DNA of 64,000 nt, from contig NC_088300.1 in NCBI RefSeq assembly GCF_032854445.1, positions 15,503,570-15,567,569 on the forward strand. The letters run 5' to 3'. Positions within the stretch are counted from its first letter, which is position 1, and each line of letters opens with the position of its first letter. The notes beneath the pieces were generated by a model. It saw nothing but the letters and a program-made list of their open reading frames with translations. It made no database searches and was not told the DNA's origin. Below are positions 3,336 through 44,900 of the stretch, one piece after another. Origin of the DNA: Liolophura sinensis (Eukaryota > Mollusca > Polyplacophora > Chitonida > Chitonidae). Both the position numbers and the translations under genes were made by a program.

Positions 3336-6300
3336 CTATAAAAAGGATAGAAACTGTGATTAAAAATGTACGCTACATTTATCTTTATATTTGTCATCAC
3401 ATGAACATATATTTATATAATGTTTTACAAATATAAAAGTAAGTATGTATACGTCAGTCTGTAAAAACGCCCAATGCTTTTGTTCTGTAGCCAACATTTT
3501 TTTTCATCAGACCTGTTTTTTCTTAAACAATATACAACATACAAACAGAAAGAGAACAAAATTCTGCTTAGCAATTCTTTTACACTTCGTGATAAACTTG
3601 TTAAATTTTATGAGGCTGTACTTAAACAACTGCTTTCACTGGCTCCACAGATCTGCATTCGTATCGACAGAAACGCATGTATTAGCGTCCCACTTGCCAT
3701 CTTACTCCACAGGACAGGCGAGATGTTAATTTACAGTAGAATTTTGAGAATTTGCGCAATCCTTGTTGATTGCACGCCCAGCTTTTTGGTAATGACAGAG
3801 TGTGGAATAAATGCGACATGAAGTTCACGGAATACTGCTATACGAGGGTATGTACACGTAAGTCTTTGAGAGCAAGTGATTTGGTCGTTTTCAGTCTCTG
3901 AATTTTCATGATGCCACAGTTGTTTACGTGCTTGATTTGCCTTGAGTCCTAACGTCGTTGTCAACATTATTTCAGCCATATCACCAAGATGATTTCATAC
4001 GGCATGCCGGCTCCATTGTTAGCAATGGCGTCATATACTGAAGACATGCACCAAACATGATGCCCCACGAAGTCCCAGCATTACGACATTGGGTCGACCA
4101 ATGATGTTAACCTGGGCGTCAGCAAGGAGTTAAGAAAATTAACTGTTTTAAGGTCTCAGAGATGACCAAACTTGGGATTGAACCCCGGTCTCCTGCTCTT
4201 TTTCTAACTGTTAGGGTGCAGTTACCACCGCGTCTCCCTTGCTTATCTATTTTAGACAATGTGGGTGTACTTACACGGTGACGAAGGTTATAGGTCAAGG
4301 TCAGGTTCCTGGCAAAGGAGTTAGCGAATGCGTGGTAAAATTCCAGAACCTCCAGGAGGCGGTCTCTTTTGATTATGTGAAGGTCACAGTAGGTGAGGGC
4401 GCGCACGTTGGCAGTGGATTGACCAATCGTTGTTTCTTTCCAGAAGTTATCACCGAAAACGTCACCTTTGCCTGTAAAGATGGATTTATTTTCATGTGGA
4501 AGATTTCAATCTGATATAAAAAAAACATATCAAATGTTCATGCCAGTAAATTTTGTCTTTTTAGTATTGAATGTCTTAAAATACATAACTGGATATAACT
4601 TTGACTAAAACATCTAGGGCATATTCCACAAAGCCATTTCTTAAAAGACTTTTACGTTAATATTTAAAACTTTGTAACAAAATCTTAGTTCTTGGTACCC
4701 AAATTTGCCATTTTAGCACATTTTTCTGAATATAACATTGGACGAGGTGGTCACATTGTTAATTTCTATTGCCTAAAAATAAGCTCAAAATCATGCTTCA
4801 GTAGTTTGCTTGAAAGGTGCGTTTCATGATTTCATAACCTATATGATATAGCTCAAATTGCAGAGCTAAAACTTTTAGTTTCCGGTATTCTTACAACTGA
4901 CATTATCAGCCTGCTCTCTGGGATAGTTGCGTAACTAGCAATCAGCAGGAAGTACATATACATAAAAGGTTATATATTGTTACTATCGTTAAAACAATCT
5001 TATTAAAATATATGTATACGTTATTGTCACTTCAGGAGACAAAAACCTAAACTGCTCTCTTGCTGTACAGTGAGGTACAACTCTCGTACAGTCATAGTGG
5101 ACAATAACAAAAACAGGCCCGTAATTAGTATGTGGGGGGAATTAGAAATGGTTGTTATCTGCTCTTGATAAATGTCACTTCGCGGAAAAGTCAATAAATG
5201 ATGAAGAACAAGTAAGTTTCAATGGCGGTTATAACTCTGAGGTAAAAATAGGGTAAAGCCTATCACCAACAACAGGCAATTACACACAAGCAATTAGCGT
5301 TTAGAGCTTCCTCATCCCACAGAAAGCGACACAAGAATGCATGCGTGCCAGTAAACTGAGAACTAGTAATTGTATCTGTTTGAACCATCCCTTCCTTGAA
5401 CTCCATTATGGTATGGTAACTCTTGAATATCTAGTTACTTAGCAGCCAGCGTTTTCCAACATCAATTTGCTCTGAGCTGTCACTACTTTAGCAAGTTGCC
5501 TATTGGTATCATGTCACTGGAGTGTAGAGTCTTCGCTCATCACCTTTTAGAGTATTTTATGAAACTAAAATTTCTCACTTTCTTCATTACAGCAATTATG
5601 TAGGTGTACGGTTAACCTATATAGGTCTGCTATATGCTTATCGATTTATCTGCAAAATTCAACTGATTGGTTTCCCTTCGTCAAACATTTCAGGTTAAAG
5701 TTAGGGCTGTTGATTGATTAAATGATTGTCAGTTTGATTAGCCCATAACGTCATTATAACGGATTTTTATTTGTAAATATATATCGTGTTTAAAACCGGC
5801 TTTCCATGTGAGTGTGTTCTGTGTAGATAACACGACCACAGAAGAACCATAAATGATTGTTATCTGCCCTGGATAAAATGCAACTTCCCGGAAATGCATG
5901 CTTGAACACCATGGTTACGGGCGCTAACCCTCCCCATCGTTTTATGTTCTGTCGCTTTAGAAAACCTTTAGGCTTGGGAAACTTACTGAGAATGGCAACC
6001 ACTTCGTCGTCTTGAATCACCTCCAAAGATCCGGAGACGACGAAGCATAGGGCGTCCAGACTTTCTCCTTGATGGAAGATTAGATCTCCTGGTGCGCTAT
6101 GGGTCATATTGAAATGCATGGCCAGGGCCCTGAGACAACCATCACTGGCGAGACGGAAGGCGGGGTGCTCGCTGAATACCTTCCGATTTAAGTGCACACA
6201 TATGTCTGCCTTCATGTCCTTAGGGCAATAATTGAGTACCTGGGAATAGAGGAAGAAAGCGAGATAGTGGTACTGTCTTCATACGTCAACCGTAATCCTA

Positions 6301-9300
6301 GTATGTATACAACAGAAGGCATAAAGAAATTTCCGGCCAAGACGATTTATAGCTCTAAAAACGGTCTCTGCATCTCTCTGGGATGGCATTTAAGGTTTCA
6401 GTCTGCGTGTACTGTCATGAAACCCCAGCCGAGATGCGACCTTGCCCTGTGAACCTCACCAAGGTCAGATTGTCTGGGTTTCTCTCACCCTAGAGAGGGA
6501 ACTCAACACCTCTGACATCGTGCGGTAAGTATAGAGATGTGGGAAACCATTCCCTAAAATGCCCAAAACGATATGAATACAGTAACTGTCTGCGATCATA
6601 CTTGAAGAAGTTTTGCTGTTTTATTTATAATTAGATATATAATGCTACCGATGGTATACGTAGTAAATTCTGCTTTTCCCATTCCTCAATTAAAAATTCT
6701 CTGATTCGAAAGGAATGCATTCAACTGTACGATATTTTTCGAAAGAGTAAAAAATACAAAATGTTTCACGTATACTGTGAGGCAGTAAGTGGGAGGTTTA
6801 CAATCTCTAGTCATCGTTTCTATATCATCAATTATTCCCACCATTAATGTCTCTTTCACCAGTGCTGCTACTCTCAGCCTCATCAGTTCATACGAACAAA
6901 ACACATCCGTGTTATTTATTGATTTTCCGGCTGTACGTGGGAAGGTCTCCAGCAACCTGCGGATTGTCGTGGGTTTCCTCCGGGTTCTGCCCGGTTTCCT
7001 TCCACCATAATGCTGGCCGCCATCGTATAAGTGAAATATTCTTGAGTATGGCGTAAAATATCAATCAAATAAATAAATCAATAAATCATTTATTGAGTCA
7101 TCTCATTTTGCGATTGTGCATGCGTGGAAATGTACGCAGAATTTATGTGTACATGTCTCTGTGCTATTCTGTATCTGTCATGGTAACAGCACCCAGCTAC
7201 ATGGTTTTTGTAAACATTTATCAATGAAACCACCTACCTTAGCAGCATCGATGCCTTTCGTCATAGCCCAGGTGGACACAATGTAATCCATGACGCGTTC
7301 ACTCAGAGCTTTGGGTACGTCGTGTAGTTTCATGAACTCCCGAACGCTGTTCAGCATGTCATGGTAGCGGGCCGTGCTCGCGTAGAACTGCTGGAAAATC
7401 GTCGTCACGTTACTGAAGATTGTGGCGTACAGCAGAGCTGTCAAAACACAAACAACGCGTGCAGGTTATTTCTTACGTTCATGTAAAAATATCAGGATCT
7501 TCCTCATAGATACACGTGCTTCCTCATAGAAACTGATTTTGGACATCATACTCAAGAATATTTCACTTATACGAAAAGGTAAGACTACGGGTGGAACAAA
7601 TCGGGCATTAGGTAATTTACTGAAAGAACTGCCACAGGTGAGTTACAGATATACCCATCGATACAGATAAACCCACCAAGATACAGATATAACCATCTTG
7701 ACACAGATATATCCATCAAGATACAGATACACCCATCAAGATACAGATAAACCCATCAAGATACAGATACACCCATCAAGATACAGATATGCCCATCAAG
7801 ATACAGATATCCCCATCAAATTGGTGGATTTTCAACGAATGCTGGGCTTCACAAACGGTCGCACAAGCCTCATGCGTGGCTTATATTCACCAAGGCCCAT
7901 GATAGATAATGACATTTTCGAAACTTTATCCTTCTTCAAATGTTGTAACGCATTGTTCATGATCATTTGCTGACCAATTACTCCCTTCAGGACACGATTC
8001 CATTCTTATTGCCCAATGCGAAACGTCTTCAACCATTCAAATCGAAAGTATTCGAATTATGCAGAAAAATTGCACAAAAAACAGACAATACCTAACATCC
8101 TCACGTTGCAAATCTCATGGCAAAATCTAGGGAAATATCAGTCTATGCAAGTCTATAAATAACATGCTGTTTCGCTTTCTATTTCCACAAAGACAAAAAT
8201 CCACAGGTTAAATTGATGCACAAAGACATGAACGCGTGAATGAAAGACTTAAACTACAGTCTAATGGCCCAATAAACGACTTCACGTTCAACGCATTCTA
8301 GTACCGCCTGTGGACTTTTTATTGCCTGTGAAATAAGATGTAAACGCATTAGACAGTTGAACATTGTAAAAAGCATTAAACAAGTTTATGTTAAAGTTTG
8401 GTTATAACCTGTTCGTCAATAATATTCACACGAGTAAATACGGTTTGTTCGCTTTATTGGTCGCCCGCATTATTAAATCCTATTACATAAAGATACCATT
8501 GCATCCATGAACATAGAAGGAGGTGTATTGTAGTTTGACATTCATGACACTTTGGAATTGATCAAAGTGTTTAACAAGAATGCCTTTACGTGAAAAAGAT
8601 CTCATTTTGTACTCGAAAAAGGTCTCATTTTGTGCTCCAAAAGATCTCATTTTGTACACGAAAAAATCTCATTTTTGAACTCGAAAAAGATTAAAGAGGT
8701 TTCTTGCATAAGATTGTTCTTGCAGACTGGAGAAAACCGATCATTTCCCCGCCTGACACTTTTTGTAGAACGGGCAGCCCATATCACACCTCTGTGTAAC
8801 ACAAACATAGTATAAATAACAAGACTTCCACGTAGTCATATAGCTTCATTCTTGTACAAAAGTTTTGCACTTAGCCTGTATTTAGATCACACATAAATCA
8901 AGTCGAACAAAGGTTGAGCTTGCATCAGAATATTGGAGCGTTCATATTTTGGAAAAGATTTATTTTAATTTATTATTTTTGTACAAACCACAACCAGATC
9001 TACTTAAACATCGCCAATATCCAATTTTAAGTCATTAGAATTTAGCAAAAAGGCATTTTAACGACAGACACACAATCTTGCAATTTTTTAAGGTAATTTT
9101 TCAAGCCCAGAACTACATGCGTAAGCTTATACATATGCAATGTTTACACACTAATGGTATTTAATTGGAACAAAACCCTGGTCCAATTTAATTTCTATAT
9201 TAATGAAAATGTCTACCTACTTGGGATGACCAGCCTTAGACAAAACGCGAGTATTTTCCAAATATGTTGTGCTTCATGATATGGATGAAATACTCCCAGT

Positions 9301-12300
9301 GTTGCGTTAACTACAATTATACATTCCTTCCTGCAATGCTGCTGGGTAAACGTTCGTGTTACCACACCTTTTTCAATATTGTGACACAAATAAAGCTTTT
9401 GCTTTGTTGACCCATGGAAGAGCGTAAACCACAGAACCTCTGGTTTCAAGAGCGCTTAAAAACCAATATGTTTGGTTAGATAAGTAAGTACAAAGGTAAT
9501 ACACATGTAAGGTCTACATGATGTCCGCTTTCCGTGAGTAATTCGATCACAACAGTATGGAGGACAAGCCATCGGTAGCTTTTACACGCTATTACTAACA
9601 GGTTATCATGATGCTTAACAAATGTAAAATTATCTTTGTTACGAGACGTTGCCTGATTTAGAGATCTTGTAACAAACAGGTCAACACAGCCAAGTGATAC
9701 AGTTTTACGTGAGACAGGAGCGGTGCTTAAGTCATATTGTCGTGATACACGTGTGTATCTTCCGGGGTTGTCAGAGTAAAGCCTTTAGTGCTGAGTTCCT
9801 TAGTCGAAGAATAACAGCATATCTGGCCGTTTGATGACCCTAAATCGTGGCACACGGGTGATGTATTTAGTTGCCTTGGAGAGCTTGTCTAACAAAAATA
9901 GCAGTCTTAACGTTGATGGGATTGACACTTAAACTCTGATCACAAATACTGTATGTCTTACCACAAGAGCCACACTTATACCGTCATATGATTCCTTGGG
10001 GCAAACTATATCCAAGGCGAGTGCCGCTAAGTTTAGAATTAGCTATAATTGAAGATCGTTATAACGCCGAACCCAGACATCCAACAGCTGAATAATCAAG
10101 AGTTCCGAGGTCGAACTTTCTAGAAGTGTGTTGTCGTTCTTTGGAGGGGCCTTTTAATGAAAGAAGTAAAATTGCACCCAAGTATCTATATAAAGTACAC
10201 ATGTTCACCTAATGACTGTCACAGAATAATAAATAATGTCTATTCATGGGTAGGGTTTGATAGAATGTTTCCTCGGGTAGGGATTTAAGGGAATGTACGC
10301 TATTTCATTTCGTGATACGGTGTTTATCACTTCAAAACAAGTTCTGTTTGGTGCAAGCCAATGATGCATCAAATGAAACCACTGACAGCACCACAATGTG
10401 ATATTTGTATAAAGGCAAACCACCTTAAGCGCTTGATTCAAATGGTCACATGACACAATCGATGAAATAACCTCTGCAATTTGCACGAAAAGCAGCTATC
10501 TGACAGTCGATAAAACAGCCACAGCAGCTAATGTGAAATGCAGATTTCGATGATCTGAAACAAAAATTACTGCGTCTAATGTGGGGTTCAACAGTTTGAC
10601 AGTTTGTACAAACACAAAAGCTTGTGTGGGATCGGTTTATCTGGCTGTTGACGAGGGCGTTGTTCAAACATCCACATGCAGTTAGATGTTAAATGAAGTG
10701 AAGACCACCTAAAAATTATTGCAGTCTTCAAATTGCTGGAAAACGGTCACCATAACAATGGAGTAAATACTACTGAGGTGTTCAAAGAGAGAATGTTAGT
10801 CAATTAGAACAACCATTACCTGCAAAGTTCCACAAGTCAAGGCTGACTGCATAAATACACACGCATAAAACAACATGTGTAAATATCTAAAGAAATCGTG
10901 ACAGCTTTCCATGTTCAGTACTATCGTTTGTCAGGGATCAGTATTTCTGTGTGTTTATCTATGGTTTTAAAACTCAACATACAGACGTCAACAATTAATT
11001 ATTTTCTTTATTTGCTCACGTGCCCGATTGGTCGACAGATTGCTTTGATCATAATCCGGAGGTTTTCTGAATAGAAAACTCGATGGTGAGTTTCTGTATG
11101 TTTTCTTTTTGTGATCTGTTCTCGCTCCATGAACGCTATATATCTTTTACTGCGTAGATAAAGTTACTTCGTGATCATTTATCAAGCACAATTATACTTC
11201 ACAGTTGTAGCAGTCCCATCTCCAAGAATGGATCATTACAAACTTGAAAAAGCCGAGAAATTCCATGTACATGTATGGATAATGCTAATATCATTACTCA
11301 GCCCATAAGTCTTCATCGACGTTGATTTCCATATTCCGATTCACTCCAAACTTTGACGAAGAGATAAATCTTCGTTGTCAGATATTGATTTATTTATTAC
11401 AGAAACGAAGACAGCATAGAGAAGAGATGGAGAGAGCAATAAACGAATAGGCCCTTGATTAAAGAACATTCTTAATTACATGATTATCATCGTAGAACTA
11501 TTGTTCATGCCTCCCAGACTCGCTAGAGAATCCGACGGGTGATACAAGGAGTTCCAGTACAAATGCCGTTGCTTGAAGAAACCCTTCACGGAGTCATCCC
11601 TGGCAAACACCTGTCAGTTAGCTTTGTGTTACGCGATATTCGATCGCATGACAATTATTTAATAATAAAGGATTGCTTTATTGACTTATTTGGTGTTCAG
11701 TGACACCAACGAGCTCAACGAGCTCAAGAATTTTTCACTATATGGTTTATGGGTGGAGGAAACTGGAGTACATGTAGGTATGTCCTTTAGTTTTCTACAC
11801 AATCGTTCGTTTGATGCAACTGCCACACTTGCCAGGTGATTTTGATTAGGGGCCAAGGAACTGCAATGTGGAGTTCTCGAAAAATTTGGGCATAACGTAT
11901 GCAAATTAGTTAATTATGTCGTCACACAGTGCATGCTCTACATAATAACAAGATTATTTTGTTCTGTATTTCCACAACGCCAAACAGTTGAAACTCACCT
12001 CCACATATCATCATGAATATTGAAAACAGTTTCTCGGACTCGGTGTTGGCGGCCACGTTTCCAAACCCCACACTTGTCATACACGAGAGGGTAAAATAAA
12101 GCGCTGTGAGATAGCGCATGCTCCGATTCGGGCCACCTTCCAAAGTTTGACTGGTGTTCACCCGGAAGTAAGGCGAACTTGTTATGTTGGCGAGTGTGTT
12201 GAGCCACCCATAGTTGAGACCCTCGTTGATTTCCGAGAGACCGATGCTATACCATATACAGGCAAACCAGTGGGCGAAGAGCATAAACACTAGGATAAGT

Positions 12301-15300
12301 ATGATGAGGACAGCAGCGCCGTACTCCATGTAATGATCTAGTTTACGTACAACTCGACCTAGCCTCAGGAGTCGTACCACTTTGAGAGCGCTGAACAGAG
12401 TACTGATGCCCTGAAAAACATACACATGAAGTATTTTAGCTATGATGTGTAAAACTTTCTGCTCCTTTATCATGTTAGGAAGTTGTTTTAAAGGAAGTTA
12501 GAGACGTTCTATTAAATTGAGACTTAATTAGGTTTGTTCTCTAAATTTAACATGTTAATAGCTGGACTGAAGGGATAAAAGTTCACTTTGTGTGTTTTGA
12601 CTGATGATGATTATATATTTGTTTATTTGATTCTTGTTCTCTCTGGCCGTGCGTGAGAAGGTCTGTCAGCGGGTTTCCCCCAGGACTTGTCCGGTTTCCT
12701 CCCACTATAATGCTGGCCGCCGGAGTATAAGTGAAATATTCTTGAGTACGGCGTAAACCACCGATCAAATAAATAAATCAAATAAATATCTGATTGTTGT
12801 TTAATGCCATGCCCAAGAATTGTTTACTAATATGATGGATACCAGTTTCATTGCAGAGGAAAGCGGAATGCCTGAGTAGTCGCCAACGTACTCTGTGTAA
12901 TAGTACAGAAAGAGCATAGTCAACCGTTACATAACACTTAGGCTTCAAAAACAATGGAAGCAAAGGAGTCTTGAAAAGAACAGTAATAAATCCAGATCTC
13001 GGAAATCCACAGTTGGCAAAGCAAGCAGCTCAACCACTCCGCTTTGGTATGCTCTCCCTTACTGATTAAAAGCGACAGTCTAATGAAGCTTCAACATTAT
13101 GTTTTACATCGGTGTTGGTTGATGCACGTTTGAACAATCGACCAACAAAAGGTAACGCCCTAACAGGGACAGCGTTGGCCTGTATGCGTTTACTTTCGCA
13201 AACACATGCTTATGATAAATCTTGAGGTCAACGCAACACGTTGCCTTTAATGACATGTCTTACTGTGTTCTCTCTGCTGTTTTCGTTTGAGAGAAATCGT
13301 GAACATCATATTTTAATCATTATTTATTTATCTGCCTGGTGTTCTGCGTCATACTCAAAAATATTTCACTTATACGACAGTGGTCAGAATTATGGTGGGA
13401 TGAAACCGGGCAGATCCCGGTGAAACCAGTCGCAGGTTGATGGCGAACCTTCCCACATAGGGCCGGAGAGTAAGCTGGCATGAGTTGCATTTGAACTCAT
13501 TTCGATCCTAAGCCCCCCTCCCCCCCTTCCCCGATATTTTACAACGAAATGAGTAGGGGAGACAAAGATTTAAATCTTTCTTTAGAACCGGTTTCTTTTC
13601 ATTTCTATAAATAGAGCATCTGACACAAAGGGAATGTCTTGTTCCCTTTATGTCTCTGTGCTGTACGTCTTTATATTGTTAACGAACTTTACTTACATCA
13701 TCTACATACTGGAACGCATTAAAGACGTCATAAGGCAGACATGACAGCAGGTCGATCACAAACCAGCTCTTTAAGTAATTCATGCGGATGATTTTCGGAT
13801 CTGAAATAACTTCTCCGCTAGGCCCAACAAATGTGGTATGAAAGTTCAAAATGATATCGATGAAGAAGACAACATCTACAATGCTGTCGATGACGAGAAG
13901 TGGAACCTGATCCATTGTCTTGTTTTTGAAGGCCACGTTGTATGGGACCATGACGGCGGTGTAGAAAGTTAGACTGAGGATGATCCAATCCCAGATGGCT
14001 TTGAACACGCAGTAATGAAGGATGATATGGGGAGGGGTTTTGGGAGCTTCCTGGCGGTACTGAGGAAGCACGTCCGAGTTGAGGTTCATCATCTGAAAAC
14101 GTCAAGTGAAACAGATTGGGGCAATGGGCCAGAATTACACCAACATTCAAATATGTGACGAGAAGTATAACAAATAATTTACGTCAAGAAAACAAGTATG
14201 AAACAAGCTTAAGTCAAATCTAAAAGAAAACAAAAACACAACTTGTGGTGAAATGCGGTCACAGTTAAGAGCAGCATGTATTAAAAAAAAACGATCCCAT
14301 ATTGAATTTCAGCTGAGTGATTTTTGTCTGAGAAAAAATGGATAAAATTCAAAATTACAAAAATAAGGCATTAGTGGAAAGTTGTCTCCAAGTTAGAATG
14401 ACAGAAATGAAGAAAATCTATGAGTTAGTAATTCATTAAGACGTAAATCTGATTCCACACAGTTATATTATAGGAATGTTCACAACCTTTGGTTTCTCAT
14501 ACAAACAATACATACGCTCGAAAAGGCTACGGTGTAACACAGAATATGAAAAAACGTGAATCTGTCAGACTGTTGAAAATTATCTAGCATCTGATGAAAA
14601 CACTGACACCATTGTTATCATATGCTGTACATTCACGCTGTAAACCAACAAACATAGTCACATGACACGACACAGGCCATCTCGATCTACTTTGGTTTCG
14701 TGGAGAGGAAAAGCGAAAAATATCAAGACTATATTTATGTTTATTGGATACTGGCTAGTTACAGACATCCAAACTGGAACGAATGTCAGTTTACTCTCAA
14801 TTTCGCTCTCAGCCCTGGGTAATTAGCTGAATGGAATCCAAAGCTTTCTTGAATTAAAGACTACTTTTAGCATACGTTTCTTGCAGACTTGTTATCCAGG
14901 TTTTTTCAGTGTTTCATCATACATCCATGAATATTCAGTGGCTGAAGTGTCGAATGAGTGCAAGCATAACATAAGATAACAAAAATTATTTCTATGGAAT
15001 TTATTTCTACCTTCATTATATTTTTTATTATTTTCCAGTTCGATCCAATCTTCACTCTGGTCAAAACCATGGATAAGTGAGTGGCCTGGGTCTAATCAGT
15101 GGAGACAAAGACAACTTACAAGCTGGCACCGGTCATGCAACAGTTCTTCTCATCCTAACTGATACGGAGATGTGTGAGGGTTATTGGGCTAAGGGTGGCC
15201 CACACACCAGCTAGCCGTGTGATTTGGCTAGCCACCATCTTTTTTGTCACGTGTACATCACCAGACGGACACCACACGTTGACAGGAAGTACAACATTTT

Positions 15301-18300
15301 CACTTGTCACAAGTCAGTTAGTTTCTGTCCTCAAGGGGCTGAGTGTTATCAGGAATGAATAGTGACATTCGGACGAATTGTCGTAAAAACTTCAAAACTT
15401 TTTAAAGGCAAATGAATCACTAAAATGAATATATATCATGTCAGATGAATGACCATTGTCCAGGAAAACAGTTCGATTTATTTTTTAAGACTTTTTTCAA
15501 CCTGGTAAAATGCATTCTCCTTTTGGCCATATTGTGACCATTGACAATTACATCAGGTTTTCGCCACTTAATTCAGACTTTCAGACTTTTGCATTCCATA
15601 TATTATGCGCGTATACGGTTATAAGCTTATTCATGAACTATATGAAACAAAAAATATGGATGACCAGAGAAGTAAACCGTAGAATGCATGTTTAACTGTA
15701 ACTTATACTTAACTTTAAATAAAAAGTACTATTTTCTTGGACAATATTTACTGGTGTTTCATATGACATATACCTTCGTTAGTGTTTTCATTGCCTTTAA
15801 ACCCTTTCGCCGCGTCTGATCTGTTTTATATATCGACATGTATATCAATATATCATGAAGACTCAGTCCCATATAGTTGCATGACGCAGTTGTTTGGCCC
15901 GGAATTTCGAATCCAAAATTTCGAATTTCAAGGTCAGGAATTAGACTAAAATTGCGGTCTGGTGAAGTTTCGTCAAAGCAGTTGGTAAGACGTGATGATG
16001 CTGCGCCTACAATGACTAAAACGTGACTAGCACGTCATGATGAGAAAAGATGAAGAGGTGTTTGGAAGAAGAAGGATGATAAACGTGCACATTTGAGAGT
16101 AGAGAAGGTGTGAGTAAAAAATGTAAGCCTAAGTTGAGGTGTTAATGAAACTACCCTGTTAGATTGCGTTATGTCTGCTACCACTGGCCGTGGATTGGTC
16201 GTTCACAAAAGCCAGTCATGCGCACTTCTGACGTGCGGTATTGCGGAAATTCCTCTAAACGTCAGTTACAGCATTTGAAGCAACGTTTGTTATTTTAATC
16301 AGTGGAGCGAGGCTTGAGATAACAGCTTCAACGAAGTTCCGCAGTACGCATGTCAGAGAAAGAGAGGACAGATTACGATAGGACACGTGACAACGTTCTT
16401 ACTTCTGATGGCAATACTAACCTCTGATTGGTTACTCACATTTGCAATTTGTGAAGGCTTGGATGTATCGAATTTGGTGGTTGGCATGTGAGAGGAAAAT
16501 TGCAAAAGGACGGAACGATTCCTCGTCACAGAGCGCGCTAAGCGAGCAAATTTGCTAAGACCAGCTGTGGGAAGAAACAAACATTGATTGCTTGATTTAC
16601 TGATCAGTTCATTCATTCATTTATTGAATATTGACAAAATTAGTTCACTATTTGTTTTTGTCCCTATGTTCCACTATGAGATGTTAGTGATAGCAAATAC
16701 GTAAGAGTATGAAAAAACCTTTGCCAAGCTCTAAGATACATTATCCCTGCAGGACACAAACAATCACTAGAAACGAGATTCGAGTTTAAGGCCTTTGTAG
16801 GCGTTGATGCAGTTGACAGAGCCTGATATAGTGATCAATATGATAGACGTTTAATTATTTGTTTTCTTGATAAGGCTTTGACGTCACCAACATGTTTCCA
16901 TTCATATCACAATGGCGACTGTTTTTGGGTGATGGCGGAACCAATAATATGTGTTTGTGGTCCTGCTTCACTGAAACACCATGCCGAAGACACCCGACAT
17001 GACACCCACTACTACTTGGACTTTTAGCACCAAGGCATAAAGCACTAATCAATGCATCTGATTAGTGGGCCTACTGATTCACCGTGATGGAGAAATGTGT
17101 ATCATTTGCCTCGTAGTGAGAAGTATATATGAAAACGTACCTGTAATAAATAGGATGATGTCTTGTTTTTGTAAGCGTTATATGTAAGTTATGCAGGTGT
17201 TACAAGCATATCGTAAAATCTGGACACCTACACATAGGATCAGGTAAATACCTGGGTATGTTTACGTAAACAACACCTGAACTAATGACCTATGTCCTGG
17301 TATTGAAACGTACTGAAATCATCCTACGGTATCACTTTCTTGGTAACATTGCTATGGTTAGACAAAACGGCACGGTTTGCTTAATGGTGTAACCTGATAA
17401 TGTTGTATGCAGTATGATCAGGTTTCAGGGTGAATAATAAAATGTATGCAGTATTTTGTAAAAGTCTCTGTGTCGTCATTTTGCCTATGGAGGTCTAATA
17501 TCAGCTTCATAAAAGTGCGCATCACTTGGAATCCATGTCAAAGACACCAGGCGGTATACCAGGTTCTAGACGGATCATAAGGTTATACACTGAAAGAAAA
17601 GTTTGCGTCACTTGACTCAAAAATCATATCATATATCAAGTTATATAGTTTATTCCACACAGAAGACTGAGTCATATGACCAGATCAACTGAGTCAAGAA
17701 ACTCATCTGGTTATACTGTGACTCACTTGGTGAGTTGTTCATGGTTCAGCTGATCTGGTCATATGACCAGTTTTCTGAGTCGAATTAGCTCAATTGAACT
17801 ACTCAGATTTTTGGTCAGTTTACCCAAACTGTTCTCCTGGTGTAACTTGACACGGAATTGAACGCGTTTTTTCTCGCTTATGAGATGATAACCAACTGTT
17901 CAGTTCATATAGTCGTTGGAAATGATATAATAACCTTTGGTTCCATCGTCCTCAATCGGCTGTTTCAATGCTGTAATATCCTTAAAAGTGCATAGGAAGA
18001 GCACCACCTGATCTTTCTCATTTTTTATAGGCGCTATATGGAGTAGGAGCCACAACGGTGTCCCTGAAAAATATATAAAAAATAGCTTTATATATAATAT
18101 TAGAAAAACAAGTAACAGCAGGTCTCTGTGCAACCCAGTTACCCTTTAAACAATCAGTATCTATGAGTTCTTATCGCCCGTAGCATTTAATAACCTATGA
18201 TTTTTATCACATTCACTAAACAATGAATGCAATTAAAAGATAAGAGGAAATGCATATAGTGACTTGATTCAGACCAGGTAATACCTGTCAAACTAATTAC

Positions 18301-21300
18301 ATTTGTATATATTGAAAATATACACATGGATGACCACTCTGATTGTTCAGCAACTATTTGAACTTTTCAGTTATATATGGTTGAAATCGCAAAAACAAAT
18401 ATAAACTGAGTGTTTAATGAACATGTGTTAATATTTTTCCACGAAAATTACATTCGATAACACTATCTCGTCCACACTTTCCAGCAAAAACAAATCCATT
18501 CAGCTATGAGTCGCTAATTTTTTGTTAACACGGAGGTTGACTCAACCGCAGCATGTATGTATGTAGAATATGTATACTTGGATTTTTACGTCGTATACAA
18601 CAATTTTTCAGTCATATGAAGACGAGGAGTGATTAAGTCTGTGTACACAAATCATGTCGATGGCACCAGACATGGACACATTACACTGACACAGGTTAAT
18701 CAGTTCTATTTCCTTGCTCTAACCTCTCAGTGCCGACTGCAGCAGTTGGAGAAGGCAGATTGCAGAAGTAGGAGAAGGCAGACTGCAGCAGTAGGAGAAG
18801 GCAGACTCCAGAAGTAGGAGAAGGCAGACTGCAGCAGTAGGAGAATGCAGACTGCAGTAGTAGGAGAAGGCAGATTCCAGAAGTAGGAGAAGGCAAACTG
18901 CAGCAGTAGGAGAATGCAGACTGCAGCAATAGGAGAAGGCACTACTTTTTTATATATGAGAACATGAGCCACTTTCACAGAACTTTTTGTAATATTTCAT
19001 TTACGAGACACATCTGCATAAAAAGTTGAGTCAAACCTAGGCTAAATCACTTTTTGCCTAGTTCTTAAACTCGCTATTATCTTTCTGCAGGAGAAATTAG
19101 GCTGGCTGAGGTTTTTCTAGTCATTAGGAGATCGTGACTCACTATCACGACAGTAAACGAGCTATATACGTTATCTGTTTTGTCTGGGAACTTAATCCCT
19201 AGACAAAGCAACAGACGCACACAATTTCTTGTACGGCAGATGACAAGCTGACTCGTTATCAGCTTTGCAGATAGGAAACTGAGTCGTTATAGTTTGGGGG
19301 ACGGACAGACTTGTGCTTTTTCCTTTTCCAGCAGACGACAAGGTGACTCACTATTTTTCTTGTACAGGAGGATTTCCACTTGCTCTTGGTCCTGTATTTC
19401 GAAGGCTTTCTCCATCCTGGTGACGGTCTCTCTGTCCGTAAGCTCCCCGTACATGAAGCCGCATGTGCTACTGCGTTGCATGACTTCTGCTCTGTTGTAT
19501 CCGGCGAGCTTGCAGAAGCCATCATTACAGTAGACGATGGGGTACTCCACGATCCGAGCGTTGGCCAGCAGGAAACTGCTATCTGTTAGGAACAATAAAA
19601 AGATACCTTTGTAAACAAAATAAATCTGATGTGGAAAAAGAAAGTGAGGCGTAAAAACGAAACCTAGCAAAGACGGTAAGAAACCACCGTATCTCGACTT
19701 CCTATCGTAAGGTTGCAGTCGTATGCTTTTTGTCACACTGGTTAAATTGTTCTATAGTATTTAATGCATTTTCTACTTCAGGGCGGAACATGTGACGTTT
19801 GTAAGACTGGCAAATATATTTTATGTAATTATATAATTAGTTTGTGTTAGTCGTATTGTATTAATAAAATAAGGGCGATTTTGTTTTTTCTTTTCTGTTC
19901 TTTCCTGATTATTCACTCTCTGTTATTCCACCCTCCTGTCGGGTATTTCCAATTATTTTAGGTTAAAATTAAAGCCATGTAGGGGTGTACCTGAAGGATA
20001 ATATCACTCAAAGGAATTCATAAATATGTTTTTTTTTTCTAAACTGTTTTTCGGAAGGTTATATCAGTTGCATTTGCTATCGGCATCTCTAGGTTACAGG
20101 AGATCATGTTCAATCTCTGGGTGAGTTCACAGTCCAGCCAATGGTTTCTTCTCCGGTCGCACGAGGGACGGTCTCCAGCAACGTGGGGATGGTAGCTGGT
20201 TTCCCCTCGGGCTCTGCCCGGTTTCCTCCCTCCATAATGCTGGCCGCCGTCGTAATAAAGTGAAATATTCTTGAGTACGGCGTAAAACACCAATCAAAAA
20301 AATAAATCAGTCAATCGCAAGGTCTTGGGTTCAATCCCATTCTCGGGCTGGAAACTTCTTACATCCCTCTGTTCTTATTGTTCCCCAAGTCTCGGTAGCA
20401 ATAAATGATCGACGGTGGTCTCTTGTGTGGTCTTGCATGAAGTATCTTGGAGATGACTTGCCTTATACATCAGTAACATGTAGGCCTACGTCAATAGCTT
20501 GTTAAGGTCTGCAGTTGACTCCGAACACTCTTCCATCCACAAAACTGGCCACCATTGTATAATTGAGCAATTCTTGAGTGTGACGTTAAACATCAATCAA
20601 ATAAACAAATAAATAAAATAAAAAAAATATGTAAATACTACGGTTATGTATTTCTTCACAATATATTGCCACGGACGTTGCCCCAGACTCATGATGCAAC
20701 GGCTTAGTAAAAATATTTGGACATCAGGTTTATGACTGGAAACCAGCATCTCGCCCCACTCGTAGAAGAAGTGGAAAGTGCTGATATTATCAGATTTTCC
20801 GGCACGCCATCGGCCGTGAATGCGTACAACCTATGCATGTTGGTGTTATATCGTCGTTGCTGTCCATCAAAGAAAGTACTATTTGATTGGATAATTGGGT
20901 AGTTATTAATATTCATCAGCTATTGAGTAGGGTGAATCGGCTGTTTCTGTCTGTTGGATCATAGTAGAAAACGCATCTGTATGCGAAGTGTCGGACATAA
21001 ACTGAAGACGACATGCAGTATGTAAACAGTGGACATCACTTGGTATTGGCAACACATGGCACATTGTATATAGCTTGTCACATAGTATTTGGTAACATGA
21101 CCTTTGGGCAAACATTTTACTTGTTTTTTCAACCCAGTTTGATTTACTGTGAACAAAAGCATATGTACTTCATTAAACGGGTTGATAAAGATAACAGTGT
21201 TTATGGAAAAACAAACCCATGTCAATATCCAAACCAAAACCGCTAGAACAACATAAGAAGCTTTAAACGAATGCATGAAACCCTTATTTGGTTGTTGAAA

Positions 21301-24300
21301 TGATAAGGCTGTACACGTTTGTTAAGCATCTGTGAGACTGAATCATCATCCGACCGAAAATCAAACATGTCGTCTCCCTGTAATTTTATTGGCACTTTTT
21401 AGCTAAACCAAATCGGCCCTTCGTATAATTTCATATCACACCCTGACCCAAATTCTCACTAGATTATTGACTTCCAGTAAAGGGTGTCTCACATGGCCTT
21501 TATTGTTTAAACCACACTTCCTTTATCCGAACATGACTATAGGATGGCTTTTTGACGCAATTTGTTGCTAAGGAACGAGTAAGTTCTGTATTCATGTACA
21601 CACCACAGTGAATCATGTGGCCTGTATACCTGTACGCACCACAGTGAACCATGTGGTCTGTATACCTGTACGCACCACAGTGAACCATGTGGTCTGTATA
21701 CCTGTACGCACCACAGTGAACCATGTGGCCTGTATACCTGTACGCACCACAGTGAACCATGTGGTCTATCATGATTTAACGTCCAGAAATTTCCATGGCC
21801 TATATACAACGGAATGGCGGCTCCGGTGATACCGGAAATCACCATGACAAAGGTCAAATTGTTCACAAACTGTTACAGGTTCCCATGGGAGCAGATGTGT
21901 GTGTCAACCCAGTGCACGGTTACAGAAGCTTTTCTACTGACTACTTATGCAATCTGACATCTATCAGTATGACTTGGTGCTAACTTTCATGAAGGCAAAA
22001 ATCCTTTGTTAGCGAGCCATATATGAGATATGAAAGGCTTTGCGATGACAGGAACGGTTCAGCCTTATATAAACTATGGACTCAAAAAATTTATCTGTTA
22101 AATTTAACAGAAAGTTTGTTAACTGAGTTATGCTAGAATGTATTCTGTTATTATTACACAATATTGTGTAATAATAATATTACACATATTCAACACAATA
22201 TCCTGTTAATCAACAGAATCGTTATATTGAATTAATAGAATATGTTTGTTGTATTCAACACAATAATCTGCAGCAATAACAAAATACATTCTGGCATTAC
22301 TCAGACAAACAGAGTCTCTGTTAAATTTAACAGATCATTTTTTTAAAGTAGACTTTGAACTCTGCATTCATCATTGTTTGCATATAGGTTTACTGACTTC
22401 CTGTAAGAACTTGACCCAAAGCACTAACGGATATCACCAAGTTCTTGTAGACACTAAGACTCCTCCAAAGCTTAAATGATTCTGTGATCTTCAGTTTTTG
22501 TTTCCATGAACGCACAAATCTTCCGTTCGAGAGATTAACGGGAAGTCAAGTGGTAGTGCGTGTCGTCGGGAGACATGGAGTATAATAGAGACGAAGAATG
22601 TGTTGTCGTGCGATGGGTTACCCGACTAAACTCTGCGTAAATACTATCTATAACCAATTCCGGTAACAGCCTATTCTTTGCAAAGAGCAAATTGACAATG
22701 GCATCGATCTGAGTTTCGGAGACGGTTGTCATGGAGCTGCGTGCCTGGCGTTGGTCACGCCACAAAATGGCCGCCGGCGGACATTATACAAAACTCGGCC
22801 AAACCAATATGGTTCTAAATAGAGTAGTTAAATAAGTACTCTCAGACATGTCAGAAAATACACACCAGTCTTTTGTGTAAAACACATTAGCTGTGTTATA
22901 TGTTAAGTAAAATCAGCGGAAAAGTTTCGCACAATTTCCACAATAAAAATGATGGAGTCGTAACGACATCATATTTTCATTCCTTGTGCACAATTACAAA
23001 TAAAGACTCTTTATCTACTGATTAGCAATTAGTGTGTTATGAAAACAGCCTTGACACTCGCGAACATCAACCTTCTTAAGCAAGAACCGGTATATACTCA
23101 CACATTTTTTTATAAAATAATTCGACCAATCACAAACGTCTAATATGAGGATTATAGATCTAATCACATAAATAGACGGAAGGGGCATTACTTGGTGTGG
23201 TGACGTCATCGATTTCAGCGCATGTCTTTTTGTGTGTCTTTTTTATAAAATCCTCTATAAACAGATACAGAACAATTTTATGTAATGTTTGATTTTTTCA
23301 CATTTCGCAAATTGATAACATATACAAATATATCATAATGACGTTCAAATAATTTGATTAACTTTAACCGTAAATTATCCGGACACTTAAATCAATAAAC
23401 CTCATAGTTGATCATCAAAATCCAAAATCTTACCAGCTAATGTATTTCTATCTATTCAGTCATAATTCAGGCGTAATATTTTCTGTTTTATATGTGATAT
23501 AAAACAGAAAATATTACGCCAATCTTCACTGGACTGGAAATGACTGAATGGATAGAAATACATTAGCTGGTAATGTATGTGATATAAAACAAAATATTAC
23601 GCCAATCTTCACTGGACTGGAAATGACTGAATAGATAGAAATACATTAGCTGGTAAGTTTTTGGATTTTGATGATCAACTATGAGGTTTATTGATTTAAG
23701 TGTCCGGATAATTTACGGTTAAAGTTAATCAAATTATAAATTTCACAGAAAATTTAAAGAATGGAAAAGACAGTATTCAGAACAGCTGAGAAGAGATCTA
23801 GCAGCAGAGATGTTATGCTAAGTATATATTCTTATCTACTCGTGGAAATAATTGCACTTCATTTCTTCTGACTACATGTATTCATGAAAATGACGTGGTA
23901 TTGCCTTTTGTGTTCAAAGTATTTGTTAGCAATGATTAATAAATAAAACTGGAACTCGGAGACAATCGGAAGATTCTAAAAACGATATATATGTAACGAA
24001 AGATTTTTCCAGAAAAAATACGCGGGAGATTTCATCTTTAATATGATAAAATGTATCGTCCTCAGATGATGTAAAACAAATGTGATATTTCTTTTCAAGC
24101 AGCATATTTTACTGTTTACATGTATGAAACTCAGCTTGTCAATGCCCAGGGGTAAGTCATAACGGAAAAATTGTACTGCCAGAGAAAGAAAAAAGTGTGC
24201 CTGTACTCCACAATATGTGGGCGTTGAATATAAACGATGTGTAGGCATTCTGCATTTCCTGTTCCTTCCAGCTGACATATAAAGGCCCCCCAACAACTTC

Positions 24301-27300
24301 ATCGTACATCAATTTTTGTTTTATTATTATTATATAGCACAACTTTGCGTGTAGACCCGATAAATAGATTAGCAAACCAGCCTCGTATATGCTGATCGGC
24401 CATTTTGATCTAGCGTTTGGAGCTATTTCAAGCCAGAAGTCAGCTATCCAAACACAGACCCAAGTGACTAGCTGATCTGCTAAACCGGACGTTGGCCGTT
24501 AATCTCTGTCGATATTCTGTATGACGTCGCTGTGTACTCTATGATTTATAAACGATGCATAGCTATACTTGCACTTGGTACATTGTACTAAATGTGAAGA
24601 ATGAGGAAAGGTACAGGTCATCATTGCATGGGTTAAACCACACACACATTTGCTACAACATGTACCCCCTCCGCCAACAGTTCTCTCTCCCTCTTCTTTG
24701 TGTTTACGTCACCGGAGTAGCAGGACTTGCCGTGGAAAGCGTTAACAGTCTGATCGATGGTGTGCTTAAAGGTAACGTTATGGGCACGCCAGTTATAATG
24801 AGCGGTCAGTTTTTGTGGAGAAGGCTGGGTAGTGGAGCAGAATAGCTTAGTCGATGCCATTACATAGAAACTCTGTAGAGCTTGGGAGTTAATCAATAGA
24901 CAAGGTGCACTGGCGGCGTGACGTATAGCTAAATGGACAGGTTGCCAGGCAACAGTTTACACATATACATACTTTGGGTCAGTGAATAAGCTTTATTATC
25001 AAGGTCGGGGTGAGCTCAAGCGCTGTCTCTATGGCAGCAGAGTCATACCTTTACCTGGCCGTTATATCGACACAAGGGCAAATTAAACTCCTTCAGGAGT
25101 TAGATCTTCATCTACACATCAACGATAGCCTAATGAGATGCATGGCATAACATGTCCGTGGCCCGATGCTCAACAATGTCATTTGAAAAAGGAATCCGCT
25201 TGGCTGGTCGCCACCCAAGAATCACGGTAGATTTAGTATACAGCTGTATACCTACCTGACCTTGCAATTAAACCTGGCTAATATCGATTTTACCATGACA
25301 AGATGAACGCTACATGCTTAACAATACCACCGCTGTCTTCTACTTGCTCTTGGAGCGGTATCAAAACCACAACAAAACAAGTCCTTACGCAGCATCATTT
25401 ATACTTTGGTTAAGTGTTCCAGTTTTGCCACACGCAGATTTGTTTTCTCCATGACAACAATTTGTTTACAGTATTATTTTCTATTAAATAGTGAGGTCAA
25501 AAATTGAGGCTTTTTTATAGATAATGGGAGAGTTAGATTAAATAATTGCATGATAACTATGGGTCCTGTCTAAAACGCATATGGTTAATAGCATGATCGA
25601 TCGCTTAGATTTAATTTAGCTTTCAACATTATTTGGGTCATATCACGACCGTTCCATTCAACAAGCCACACAGCACAAAGGTTGTCAATATTAAAGTCTT
25701 AGAATAACCTAAGCAAAATATGAACCTCGGTCTCATTGCCTGCTTCACAAAATTTACAATTGATTTCTCGTTTCAGCACCGACGTGAAGTCATCCTTTGG
25801 CATTTGCCATTAGAACGCAAAACACAACAAAAAGAGAAGTCTTCAAGGGAAATCGCATTGTCGACTGCGTCATTCGTTTAAAGAGTTCCTTTGCCACAGT
25901 GGAGAGGCCTTTCACCACTGAGATCACAGATTCGAATTCAGCTTTTTCCGGTTCTGTTGTGGCTTTTAGTTAGAAGATTTGTCCGTTACCGGACGAAGGG
26001 CGATGGTTAAACCTGACTGCCATCATATGAAACAATATGCAGTGCAGCGTAAACACTTACCAAACAAGTAAATAATTCCAAGCACTGACATATGGAATGA
26101 TCTAAAAGATCTTATAGATATGAACGTAAGTTGAACCAAAGCCATAAAGAAAGACAATTTGGTCACACAAAATCGAACAGTAAAGGCCACTGGAAAGGTT
26201 AAACTGGTTTAGGCTTCACTGTTCTTATCAAGAGTATATCTGTACAAAAGACTTGAACGGAGTTGAGAAAACATTAATATGCAAATGCCTGGAGTAAATA
26301 GTTAACTGCACAATTGGATGTTTCCAGTATCTCTGTATGTATAGTGTATAGAGTCTTAGCTCACTCAGCTAATTTTCCACCAAAAATGATTACTGGTCTC
26401 TTACTAGACTCATAACCTGGTGTTCATTAGAGATTTAAATTACCGCATACTGACCTGTAGTTTGCATACATTAGGACACCGTTGATATCTTCAGAACTCA
26501 CCAAATGACATGTTGTTCTGCTTTCATAATCAGGTCGGAAGCATCAATTAAAGAGTTGGGAATGTTGAAATAATGTGTTTGTTTGAATCAAATGTTTAGG
26601 TCTTGTATGCCAGAATAATTTGATTAATTTTCCCAATTTTAGCTCCGGTTACCCTACAATAAACGTTGAAATCGCATTTAAATTTGTTCATTGTCCCAAA
26701 CCGTGAATATGCAGGCCCAGTTTTCGATGCCATGAATACGGGGATCCAGCTTCGAGTTTTATAGTATCAGCCCTTTCTGTACAGTCAGAGTAATAGTGAT
26801 AACATCGATCCACAAAAACCTCATTCATGACATTCTGTTTGGTGGTGCACCATGTGCACACGGCGACAAAGGCATTGTACAAATATTGCCCAGCTAATTT
26901 ATCTGGTTGTAGACCTATACCTCGCCCCGCGAAACAATCAACTGAAGGAAAGGCCACTACCATCAATAACAAAAACATTATTAATGTGTTCGATACCATG
27001 TAAGCTAACAATAAAATGAAAGTGTTCGGCACAATATGGTTGTTCTGTGTTAAAACCCTATCGGGTTTTTCGATAGTAATTGCCTATATATGCATGGTTG
27101 AATAGCTAAGGTGATATTTCACACAAAGCATAGTAAAAGGGTGTAATGACGAATCTAGTAACGTTTCGAACATTTCTACTGCCAAACACACTGATCAAGG
27201 CTAGTCTCAGTTTCCCGTGATAAATCACTGGTAATCAGTGTTTGAACATAATCGCTGAAACAAGAGACGGGGTTGACTTTTACCCACAATACCCCTCATG

Positions 27301-38917: not shown

Positions 38918-41900
38918 GTGTATGTACGTATGTATGCGGTTTGACGCCGTACTAAGTCATATGACGACAAGGGGTCATTAGGTGTGTGTACATATATTGT
39001 GTCGTCTTGTGGCAGGGCGAGTCCATGCCGTCACAGTTTCAATCAGGATAAAACATAGCTCGTGATAAAATATTGAATGTATCTTACATCAGCCTCTTTA
39101 CTTCCTTCGCGATCCTGTACTTCTTTATTCATTTATTTATAATATTATTCAACAATTTTCAACTTACAAAACATCAGTCAGGTGTGTAGGTAGAGGGCCT
39201 AAGAGTGCCCTGTAAAACACCACCCTTTATTAGGTACATATAACAAACCTGATTTAAACCCGCAATCGATCTAGCCAGTGTTGGATTTAAACCTTCTACC
39301 TCACTGATCAGGGAGGAGGCAATCACTTAAACCGATTGAATCGGCGAATTAACCATGTGGAATTTCTGAACAATTTTTGGATCTTTTTTATGTCACCGTC
39401 ACGAGATCTAAAAGACGGTCCTCTGAAGCTGGCTTTCGTTGGCCAGCTTCGGAATGGTTTTCCTCAGACCACAAATCTTCAAATCGGATGTAACGTTCTC
39501 CCAGCATTCTGCGGATCATCGGGAGTTCCTTTGGGCTCTGATTGGTTTTGCTGGCCAACTTTTTATAAGTGAAATATTCTTGAGAAAAGCATAAAACACC
39601 AATCAAATAAATAAATAAATAAATAAATAAAAAAATAAATAAATAAATAAATAAATAAATAACAAATCTCCAGGTGTTCAAATGTCGCTAACGCTTGAGC
39701 CTCCTCAGATATTACGTGGTGTGTTTTTGTGTTACCGGTATTTGTAAGGTTGCTGATGAGGTACGACTGTGTTCCTTATCATAGAACATGACCTGTGGCA
39801 TCAGACATTTGAGAAATGTATTTGAGTACGGTGTGAAGTACATCAAAAGAATAAATAAATAAATAACGTTTGTGTCTAACCCGGCCCCAGGAATCTACAA
39901 TGTTACATGTCTGTACCCTTCAGTCGCCACAAGTATCAAGCGGTCCTCAACCCTCTCTGCTGCCTTAACTTAGATCCGGATAAACCCATAATCACGCGAT
40001 AGAATACGAGAAGCCTTCATGTACTCAGGGCCGATTACATCCAAATATACACTCTATGCTCGCCTTGTGAACCCCCAGAGAGCTATTGGAAAATTAAACC
40101 AATGAATAATGGAAATGCCCCTCTTCCCAAAATGAGACAGAGAAAGGTGCGACATAACATTGTTTTCCTTCGTTGAATGTACTGTTAAAGAACAATGAAA
40201 TATGCCACAGTTTGTTTTTTGGGGCTTTCTTTTAAATTTTTTATTACTATTCTTTAAAGCTTGAAAACAGTAGAGAAAGAACAATATTAAACATTAGAAA
40301 GGAGATACCTACAATATTTAACTACGCAGTAAACGATAACCCCTTACCCAAAACAAACGCTATTAACTTACAAATTACAAGATAAAAACTTCAAACTAAT
40401 AGCTATGAAAATGTGTAATTGTATTCTGGAGATACGGAGTAGATTTTTTGTCGTTTGTATTTTCACTTATGAACATCAATAAACCACTAACCAGCTTAGA
40501 TAATTGCTGAAAATAATTTACATATCAATTTGAAAAAGATACTTTTCACTCCACGCAACTCAAAATTATCTGTGAGAGCTTTCCAGCTCCAGCTAATTGA
40601 ACATAATAGCCCAAATTCACCTCAGCTTTGAAATTGTTTTAAATAAGAGTGATTACTTAAAATAATGTCAACATGAATCTCGATAACAAACATACCAAAA
40701 CATTCCAATGGAATGTCTTAGCTTTTAAGAAGATACTCGAAAAATGCAGTATAAATCTAAGACGTTTCGTGAACATAAGGAATAAAGTGTATTCTCGGAA
40801 TTTCGTTAGACTGAAAGTGAATGAGTTCTATATCAACAAATGTAGAAATAGTCCATGCCAAATAATGTACATCTTTACCAGGAACCAACATTGGCAGCAC
40901 AGGACGGTTATCCATCGCTGGGTGTAGCCCATTAGTAAATGGTTTCTTTCGTCAGGCCGAGCAGCGGCGCATGCGAGCTCACGCATAGAATAGCTGTCGA
41001 TAATTATCGTAACTACTCAACGATCTGGCCAGTGAAGAGATGGCCTGTTCAATGGGTAAACAAACTACAGTCAGCAGTAATAATAGGGTGCACTGTGTAC
41101 TCAGCCAAAAATACATAGTTTATACCACACTCACCACTCAGTAAACAAACTATAGTCGTCGTTGGTGAATAAACGGTAGATTCCCAGTTTCGGTAAACAA
41201 TCTTCAGTAAACAAACAAAAAGTCAGCATCGGATCACAGATATTACTATATACTTGTAAGTATACACCGCGGATTATCCAATTTGTAAGCAAATTACAGT
41301 GATCATCAGACATACCGTCTATGTACTCTCTGTTGAATAAGAGACTACAGACATCAGCACGCAATATTCTAGGTCAATATTCAAACTAGTCATCATTACG
41401 AATACCGTGGACTATACACTGCAGTCAGCACTGAGTAAATCATGGACCATGTTGTTAGTAAATAAAATGCAGTCAACACTGAGTATGTCACGGACTATAT
41501 AGTTAGTAAATAAACTGCAGTCAGCAGTGAGTATGTCACGGACTACGTAGTTAATAAAATAAACTGAAGTCAACACTGTGTATCTCACGGACTATGTAAT
41601 TAATAAAATAAACTGTAGTCAGCAATGAATATGTCATGAACTATGTAGTTAATAAAATAAACTGCTGTCATCAGTGAATATACCGTTGATTCTCAACTCA
41701 GTATTAAAACAAATCGGTCAGCTAATAATTACCGCAATCACACTGTCAACACAAGATGTGGTTATGATTGCCGCAAAGCAGATTCCACAATGAACACGAA
41801 AGATTGTCCGTAGAAATGTAATAGGGTAGCATCAGCTTTTCATAACTCTCGGTAAGAAGATTTAGCCAGTTTCAAGTAGTATCTAAACTTCCATTGTTGA

Positions 41901-44900
41901 GGTATTCGTTGAAAGTAGGTGAATTCCAAGACAAATTGAGTCACAGCGCATGTAGGTATTATGACACGGTGATGTCTAGCCCACGACATTATGACACGGC
42001 CATATCTGGCCCACGACATTATGACACGGCCATATCTGGCCCACGACATTATGACACGGCAATATCTGGCCCACGACATTATGACACAGCGATATCCGCC
42101 CCAAGACATTATGACACGGTGATATGTGGCCTACGGCATTATGACAGGGTGATATCTGGCCCAAGATATTATGACAAAGTGATACCTAGTCACGACATTA
42201 TGACACGGTGATATCTGGTCCACGACAAGCTCAGGTCTGTCCGTTTTAACGGAAACTTTTGGCCACAGATAAGCATGCTAACCACTCAGTGTATAACTAC
42301 TCACCTTCTGGAAGTGAATTAATAATTCTTTGAGAATGAACATCTACGTAAAGGCTGTTTTTTTTTTACTATACAAGCGAAAAAGTGGGGATGGACATGG
42401 CTATATTTTTGATTTAGTTTATCCATTATGGAATGTGCTTGTGTACCAGATATCTTAGATATTCCTCTCTTTCAAGCTAGTCTTATAGTTTGGTTTTTGT
42501 ACGAGGCCAACCATTTCTGACCACTGCAGCTAGAAGATAAGAACTTTGTACAGCAAGGACTGTATTATCTTGATGGCCATCTTGGCGAGGGATGCCTATG
42601 GTACTTGGAGCTTTTATGTCCAGAATCATTTACACACAGATTTATTTTGATCTGTCGATCACACAATATTAACATCTTAGTTTGACTTACTGTAGCAAGG
42701 GAAAAATCAAGTAAAACAGATCCAAAAAAAAAATAGAGCGTCGATTGCACACATGATCTGACCAACCAAATGCGAGAGCATGCAATTCAAATTTGAAATT
42801 GTTAGGAACTCGACAAGACTTTTCATGGAAACTCCTTATACAGTAAAACAAAACGGCCATGTAAAATGTCGATTCTATCTTATGTTGCCAGCAAACTGGT
42901 GTTGCTTCAACAATAAATATAGCTGTATGGTAATAGCATGCATATTGATTGCTGTGGTACGCTCTGATGACTTTTCACATCCCATCCGTCTGTGCCAATG
43001 TAATACTCTGGGTGTGCGACGTGACGGGCCCAGACCACATCCGCCCGACACTAACCCTGCTCCCATGAGCGTTAGACTCTATATGCCCCCTGTGGCCATT
43101 CTCATGAAACTCTTAAGTCATGAAGCAGCTGACTGAAAACAATCATATTAATCTTGACATGGCCAACACTAAATGTATTAAAACATGTAGCCATCACGAA
43201 AATTATCAATTTCACAATGCGGGAATTATAGTGCCAATTAAGAAGTACCCTATTTGGTAGTACACGCGATCCCGAGCTCACGTAAGCCGTGAGATAATGT
43301 ATTCCAAGTAACTCCCTTTGCACGGTTGACGTATCAGCGTAATCTAGAACTAACCTACGCTAACATACCACTACGGTACACAAGATCTAACCTGTTCTAA
43401 CCTACCAGGCCTGCACAGTAACACTCTAATCTATGCTAACCTACCACTACAGTACAGTAAGCTAGACCTAACCTATGCTAACCTACCACTTCTACACAGT
43501 AACAGCCTAACCTATGCTAACCTACCACTTTCACACAACAACAGCCTAATCTGTGATATCCTACCACTTCTGCACAGTAACAGTCTAACCTATACTAACC
43601 TACCACATGTACACAGTAACAGCCTAATTTATGCTAATCTACCATTACCGCACGGTGACCTGAACTCAATAATAACTTAAACCTTAAGGAGACTATAGTA
43701 ACACATAACTAAATTCTGTAGTAGACTTCACCTACAGCTACTGTAACACAGAAACCTCCGCGTAACTTACTACCAACCTACAGCAAATTATACCGAACCG
43801 AAAATGTTTAATTTACTACCAATCTACAGCAAACTATACCGAACCGAAAATGTTTAATTTACTACCAATCTACAGCAAACTATACCGAACCGAAAATGTT
43901 TAATTTACTACCAATCTACAGCAAACTATACCGAACCGAAAATGTTTAATTTACTACCAATCTACAGCAAACTATACCGAACCGAAAATGTTTAATTTAC
44001 TACCAATCTACAGCAAACTATACCGAACCGAAAATGTTTAATTTACTACCAATCTACAGCAAACTATACCGAACAGAAAATATTTAATTTACTACCAATC
44101 TACAGCAAACTATAATGAACCGAAAATGTTTAATATACTACCAATCTACAGCAAACTACACCGAACCGAAAGTGTTTAATTTACTACCAATCTACAGCAA
44201 ACTACACCGAACCGAGAATGTTTTTATTACACTTCACCTTTAATAACCTATACCTTCTGTATGTTAATCTTCGATAATACTTCGATATCAATCAGTATTT
44301 AACCTTTACTTATCTAAGGTAAAGTACTAAAATATTTTGTATATTTTGCATAACTATTTCACAGCGCATCGCACCTTTAAAAGAACTCAATGAAAGGTGA
44401 AGTGGTACATAGATTTGGTTCAATATACATGTTTTTGTGTTTCACACATCAAATCGCACCAGATATCAAGGGTCAGTAAAGAAACCAACATCTGACTTGA
44501 TCTTCTCATGGAGTTAATGAGGGATAAAGATGATCAACTTAAGACCATGTCAACGACCATATTGTGTTGTTGGTAAACAAAAATGGTGCTTTCTTGACTA
44601 TGATAATTTCTTTAGACACCGTTGGACAAAGAAACTTACTTGGATTATGTCTTTATTATTCATTTTAAGACTCATGAAATCATAGTGACTTCATTTGATT
44701 TATGAAAAGTGTTTTTATAAAGTTTCCATGACGTCACGGATTCTGATTATTAAGATTATATCACATTTGGCGCTGCGAAACCCAAAATATGCAGTCATTG
44801 TGAAATCCATAATAAATCTAAATTAACAATCTGAGCGAAATAACGATGTCATTATCCTATGTTCATTTTGTTATTTATCGTTATGATGATGAAATTTAAT

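Follow-up and report, generated by a model that had tools for sequence, protein, structure and literature searches.

In the 64,000-nt window of Liolophura sinensis DNA that was analysed, a non-coding and almost perfectly self-complementary element of 389 bp was delimited at positions 23349-23737. This element is most probably a recently inserted, non-autonomous DNA transposon, a near-fully palindromic MITE of the foldback type whose right half was later enlarged by an 85-bp tandem duplication. A first-pass annotation of the same DNA had described the structure correctly almost to the base. Its term foldback element holds as a structural description, and the mobility that the term implies is read here from the anatomy of the element.

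The outer arms, of 115 nt each, lie at 23349-23463 on the forward strand and at 23623-23737 in the reverse orientation. They are complementary at 114 of their 115 positions, with the single mismatch at 23428; the near-identity in reverse complement first reported for them was thus confirmed, with a length of 115 bp rather than 113 bp and an end at 23737 rather than 23740. Inside the arms, the reported perfect stem with a 3-base loop was recovered at 23470-23520 (24/24 bp, loop GTG at 23494-23496). The left arm is separated from this stem by a spacer of only 6 nt (23464-23469), compared to 19 nt on the right side. As the 19-nt spacer is present in both right tandem copies, the left one has probably been shortened by the loss of about 13 nt. 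The symmetry breaks off abruptly at either end, the flanks showing no mirroring beyond 23349 and 23737, and the element is the longest inverted repeat of the window with arms up to 2 kb apart (among the best 25 of 178). Its GC content is 29%, compared to 38% and 38% in the two 1-kb flanks, and among segments of 389 nt taken along the window in steps of 50, only 1.6% had a GC content as low as this.

MITEs are defined by terminal inverted repeats, a length of a few hundred base pairs and the lack of coding capacity. The element combines its 115-nt arms and 389-bp length with a longest stop-free run of 49 codons (six frames, the 389 bp taken alone), which agrees with the earlier statement that it contains no ORF. 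Its structure, the absence of an ORF and its low GC content fit a near-fully palindromic MITE.

The right half of the palindrome contains two direct tandem copies of a unit that runs from the loop outwards, copy 1 at 23491-23573 (83 nt) and copy 2 at 23576-23656 (81 nt), both on the forward strand and separated at the duplication junction by a 2-nt filler TG (23574-23575). Both copies start 85 bases apart and differ by one substitution (G23550 vs A23633) and a 2-nt gap, as expected from the 85-bp duplication claimed in the first-pass annotation. The left edge of copy 1 (23491) falls at the inner hairpin's tip, four bases off its centre (23495). The inner stem is situated in copy 1, and the left outer arm pairs with copy 2. 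A block of 34 nt is present three times, inverted at 23430-23463 and direct at 23540-23573 (with one base different) and 23623-23656, so the unit words do occur three times, once inverted, as had been noticed. These three copies of one block, one of them inverted, make the element a modest natural example of palindrome evolution, from which a probable sequence of steps can be deduced.

When the left arm was compared with the tandem copies, it agreed with copy 2 at the substituted site and with copy 1 at the 2-nt gap. As it sides once with each copy, each of them carries a single private change, and neither of these is found in the left arm. The simplest order of events would be the formation of the palindrome, followed by the partial duplication of its right half and then by the private changes, arm-to-arm gene conversion being also possible. 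With one difference in 115 positions for the arms and 2 events in 83 for the tandem copies, both look recent.

The ancestral element would have had about 304 bp (389 minus 85 bp), with a 3-nt loop flanked by arms of about 150 nt each. Its inverted ends would have been recognised by a transposase produced from another genomic locus, which would have inserted it at this place, possibly at a TA. With the palindrome already formed, the right half would have gained the 85-bp tandem duplication, with the hairpin tip as its left breakpoint, most likely because replication slipped or switched template at the hairpin. Judged from this one junction, template switching at the hairpin tip would be a natural explanation of the duplication, after which each tandem copy would have acquired its own change.

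The tandem duplication itself suggests template switching at the locus, and this is also what would be expected if the whole palindrome were a local inverted duplication, produced by fold-back repair or by a template switch at a break and never mobile. The failure to find a second copy within the window and the lack of a distinct target duplication, both described below, are in line with such an origin. However, a local event would copy the local composition, whereas the whole 389 bp differs in GC content from both 1-kb flanks; furthermore, the symmetry ends sharply on each side and palindromes of similar size are found nearby. A purely local origin appears, on this evidence, unlikely. Near-perfect palindromes are also known as trouble spots in assembly and sequencing, and a hairpin read collapsed into the contig could produce a false palindrome. 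Such an artefact is extremely improbable here, as the arms, the spacer lengths and the tandem copies show differences at a number of distinct positions and the flanks are unmirrored beyond 23349 and 23737, unlike those of a fold-back read.

Two observations weigh against the preferred reading as a palindromic MITE, a kind of element expected in multiple genomic copies: a second copy was not found in the window, and no target duplication is distinct. In a self-BLAST of the window, only matches at E 0.25-0.86 were detected outside the element among the matches listed. When the arm was run along the window by gapped local alignment, its best score was 40, reached at two places and falling within the 37-47 that 12 shuffled arms reached at best. 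A 17-nt match to the end of the element at 26615-26631 was considered as a diverged copy and rejected, as its gapped score of 40 falls inside that range. The left half (172 nt) had a best score of 42 outside the element in the same type of alignment, run without a shuffle control. Exact patterns, which diverged copies would escape, gave no matches in viral_contigs (two patterns, of 22 and 32 bases) or in genome_contigs (one pattern of 24 bases). In the phages collection, searched in distant mode, a single record matched at two places, the better one over 43 nt with an E of 9e-3, and this was taken as chance. The silence of these collections says little either way, as they contain phage, viral, bacterial and archaeal DNA and are not intended for animal genomes. 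No description of this element was found in the literature, as judged by titles and abstract openings.

At the ends of the element, no unambiguous target duplication was detected, either in register or off register. With the ends trimmed by 0-11 nt and words of 1-9 nt compared in register, only AA, AT, TA or AATT fitted, and the longest equal flanking word was of 4 nt. Off register (5-8 nt tested), no equal word was longer than TCAAAT (6 nt), and with this word as target duplication the two ends would be unequal. A TA target-site duplication is expected for elements of the Tc1/mariner type, and candidate TA dinucleotides are present at 23350-23351 on the left and at 23735-23736 on the right. 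These are not diagnostic: the TA is palindromic and lies inside the symmetry, and AA, AT and AATT fit as well.

Palindromic MITEs of the Tc1/mariner type are short, AT-rich, non-coding and nearly all inverted repeat, features that the element shares together with a possible TA at both ends; this likeness is drawn from general features, and neither other copies nor a transposase were seen. Among foldback elements, tandem repeats located within the inverted repeats are known from Tetris (PMC4079207) and Galileo (PMC4168063). Tetris of Drosophila virilis has inverted repeats of up to 1,735 bp, repeats of about 220 bp and target duplications of 8-10 bp, and Galileo has target duplications of 7-8 bp and copies that often lack internal tandem repeats. 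Long inverted repeats and tandem repeats within an inverted repeat are common to both and to the element, as is the absence of an ORF in the case of Tetris, whereas the element differs in having one 85-bp duplication, a single two-copy unit, in its right half only and not in both inverted repeats. A target duplication of 7-10 bp, of the Tetris or Galileo kind, was not seen (at most 4 nt in register and 6 nt off register), and therefore the element was not filed under either of them. Pearl-type MITEs (PMC5139131) are likewise small, bounded by inverted repeats and furnished with tandem units in their interior, but those units resemble satellite monomers, whereas the unit found here is a piece of the element's own arm. 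The SIRC of Arabidopsis (PMC10342631) have direct repeats and a proposed MITE origin in common with it but, unlike the element, contain repeats of 10-29 bp with diverse DNA between them, and their inverted ends are thought to be lost.

The minus strand of the window carries exons of an eag-type (KCNH) K+ channel gene. Ten ORFs of the window were tested against Pfam and three of them matched, one to a PAS domain, one to an ion-transport domain (exon at 11925-12497) and one to a cyclic-nucleotide-binding domain, the latter (ORF 5793-6278) with 25.8 bits, under the Pfam cut-off of 27.5. KCNH5 and KCNH1 chains of the PDB are matched in their C-terminal part by a further ORF (2061-3335). The coding part of exon 1 runs on the minus strand from its ATG at 49434 to its last base at 49356. 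The exon with the PAS domain, also on the minus strand, is preceded by an acceptor CAG and extends from its first base at 19582 to 19290, a position that marks the end of the ORF and not a placed donor. Both exons are GT/AG-bounded and join in frame. Therefore, the element, located 25.6 kb past exon 1 and about 3.8 kb ahead of the PAS exon in the direction of transcription, sits in the long intron 1 of eag, where the first-pass annotation had placed it, unless an unseen exon intervenes.

Folding of the region 23300-23790 as DNA gave a z of -27.6, with none of 100 dinucleotide shuffles as stable, and folding as minus-strand RNA gave a z of -29.2, again with none of 100 in a second set of such shuffles. 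For the 389-nt minus-strand RNA, the predicted fold of -226 kcal/mol consists of 79 unbroken pairs, one mismatch and 35 pairs, plus the 24-bp inner stem. Pairing the left 34-nt block with copy 1, and not with copy 2, gave an alternative fold that was about 19 kcal/mol worse (-207.1 vs -225.7) and was rejected. The eag pre-mRNA is thus predicted to carry a long dsRNA, and the pre-mRNA hairpin suggested in the first-pass annotation is borne out as a prediction. From that interpretation, the foldback structure, the place in intron 1 and the predicted hairpin were retained, its mobile-element part being a reading of the structure. For the MITE proposed here, this hairpin of two outer helices and an inner stem would be spliced out with the intron, and the element would presumably have no special function.

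The strength of the predicted fold could also be taken as a sign of a functional intronic dsRNA, acting as an ADAR platform, a source of hairpin siRNAs or a regulator of eag splicing, which would be compatible with a transposon copy. The editing of fly eag that had been invoked is supported by PMC4965139, in which S6 and the C-terminal cyclic-nucleotide domain are named as affected. However, more than 10 kb separate the element from the ORFs with the ion-transport and cyclic-nucleotide matches, and because the likely exons of the affected regions are so distant, the hairpin would be badly placed to direct editing there and is unlikely to take part in eag recoding. Between 22800 and 24300, Rfam searches at a loose threshold (up to E 1) gave 19 matches, 15 of them to microRNA families (best E 4.1e-5), two to FasX, one to SNORD73 and one to RybB. 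No microRNA precursor was supported, since all 19 stayed below their gathering scores (39.1 bits for the best, against 96.2 required), and scores like these would be expected from any long hairpin. A functional dsRNA is, overall, very unlikely, and a use of the predicted duplex in editing or dicing has, at best, a slim chance. The fuller proposal, in which a recently inserted palindrome, grown by duplication at the tip of its hairpin, would recruit ADAR or Dicer to the eag pre-mRNA as an intronic dsRNA and change its processing, is slightly more doubtful still. If transcribed, the element would, in any case, offer a clean natural substrate for studying whether editing or dicing acts on intronic hairpins in this animal.

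Two other palindromes, both more worn, were detected in the vicinity. The one at 22084-22344 (261 bp, 73% self-complementary), with CTGTTAAATTTAACAG near both ends, is probably another MITE in the same eag intron, and the one at 17595-17835 (241 bp, 69% self-complementary) lies beyond the PAS exon. When the outermost 89 nt of the element's left arm were aligned with both of them, the scores were 16-22, judged low by eye and without a shuffle control, and they look unrelated in sequence to the element. Their presence suggests that MITE-like palindromic elements may be common in this genome, the element being possibly the youngest of the three. Apart from these, a dispersed repeat was found, among the matches listed, at 6923-7087, 12671-12787, 13322-13467, 20149-20316, 39549-39624 and 53253-53375, in both orientations and with pieces mostly about 78-89% alike, and looks like a common interspersed repeat of the genome. 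The gene region also contains minisatellite arrays at 56321-57041 (71 bp unit), 43763-44223 (46 bp), 21586-21764 (36 bp) and 41958-42227 (30 bp).
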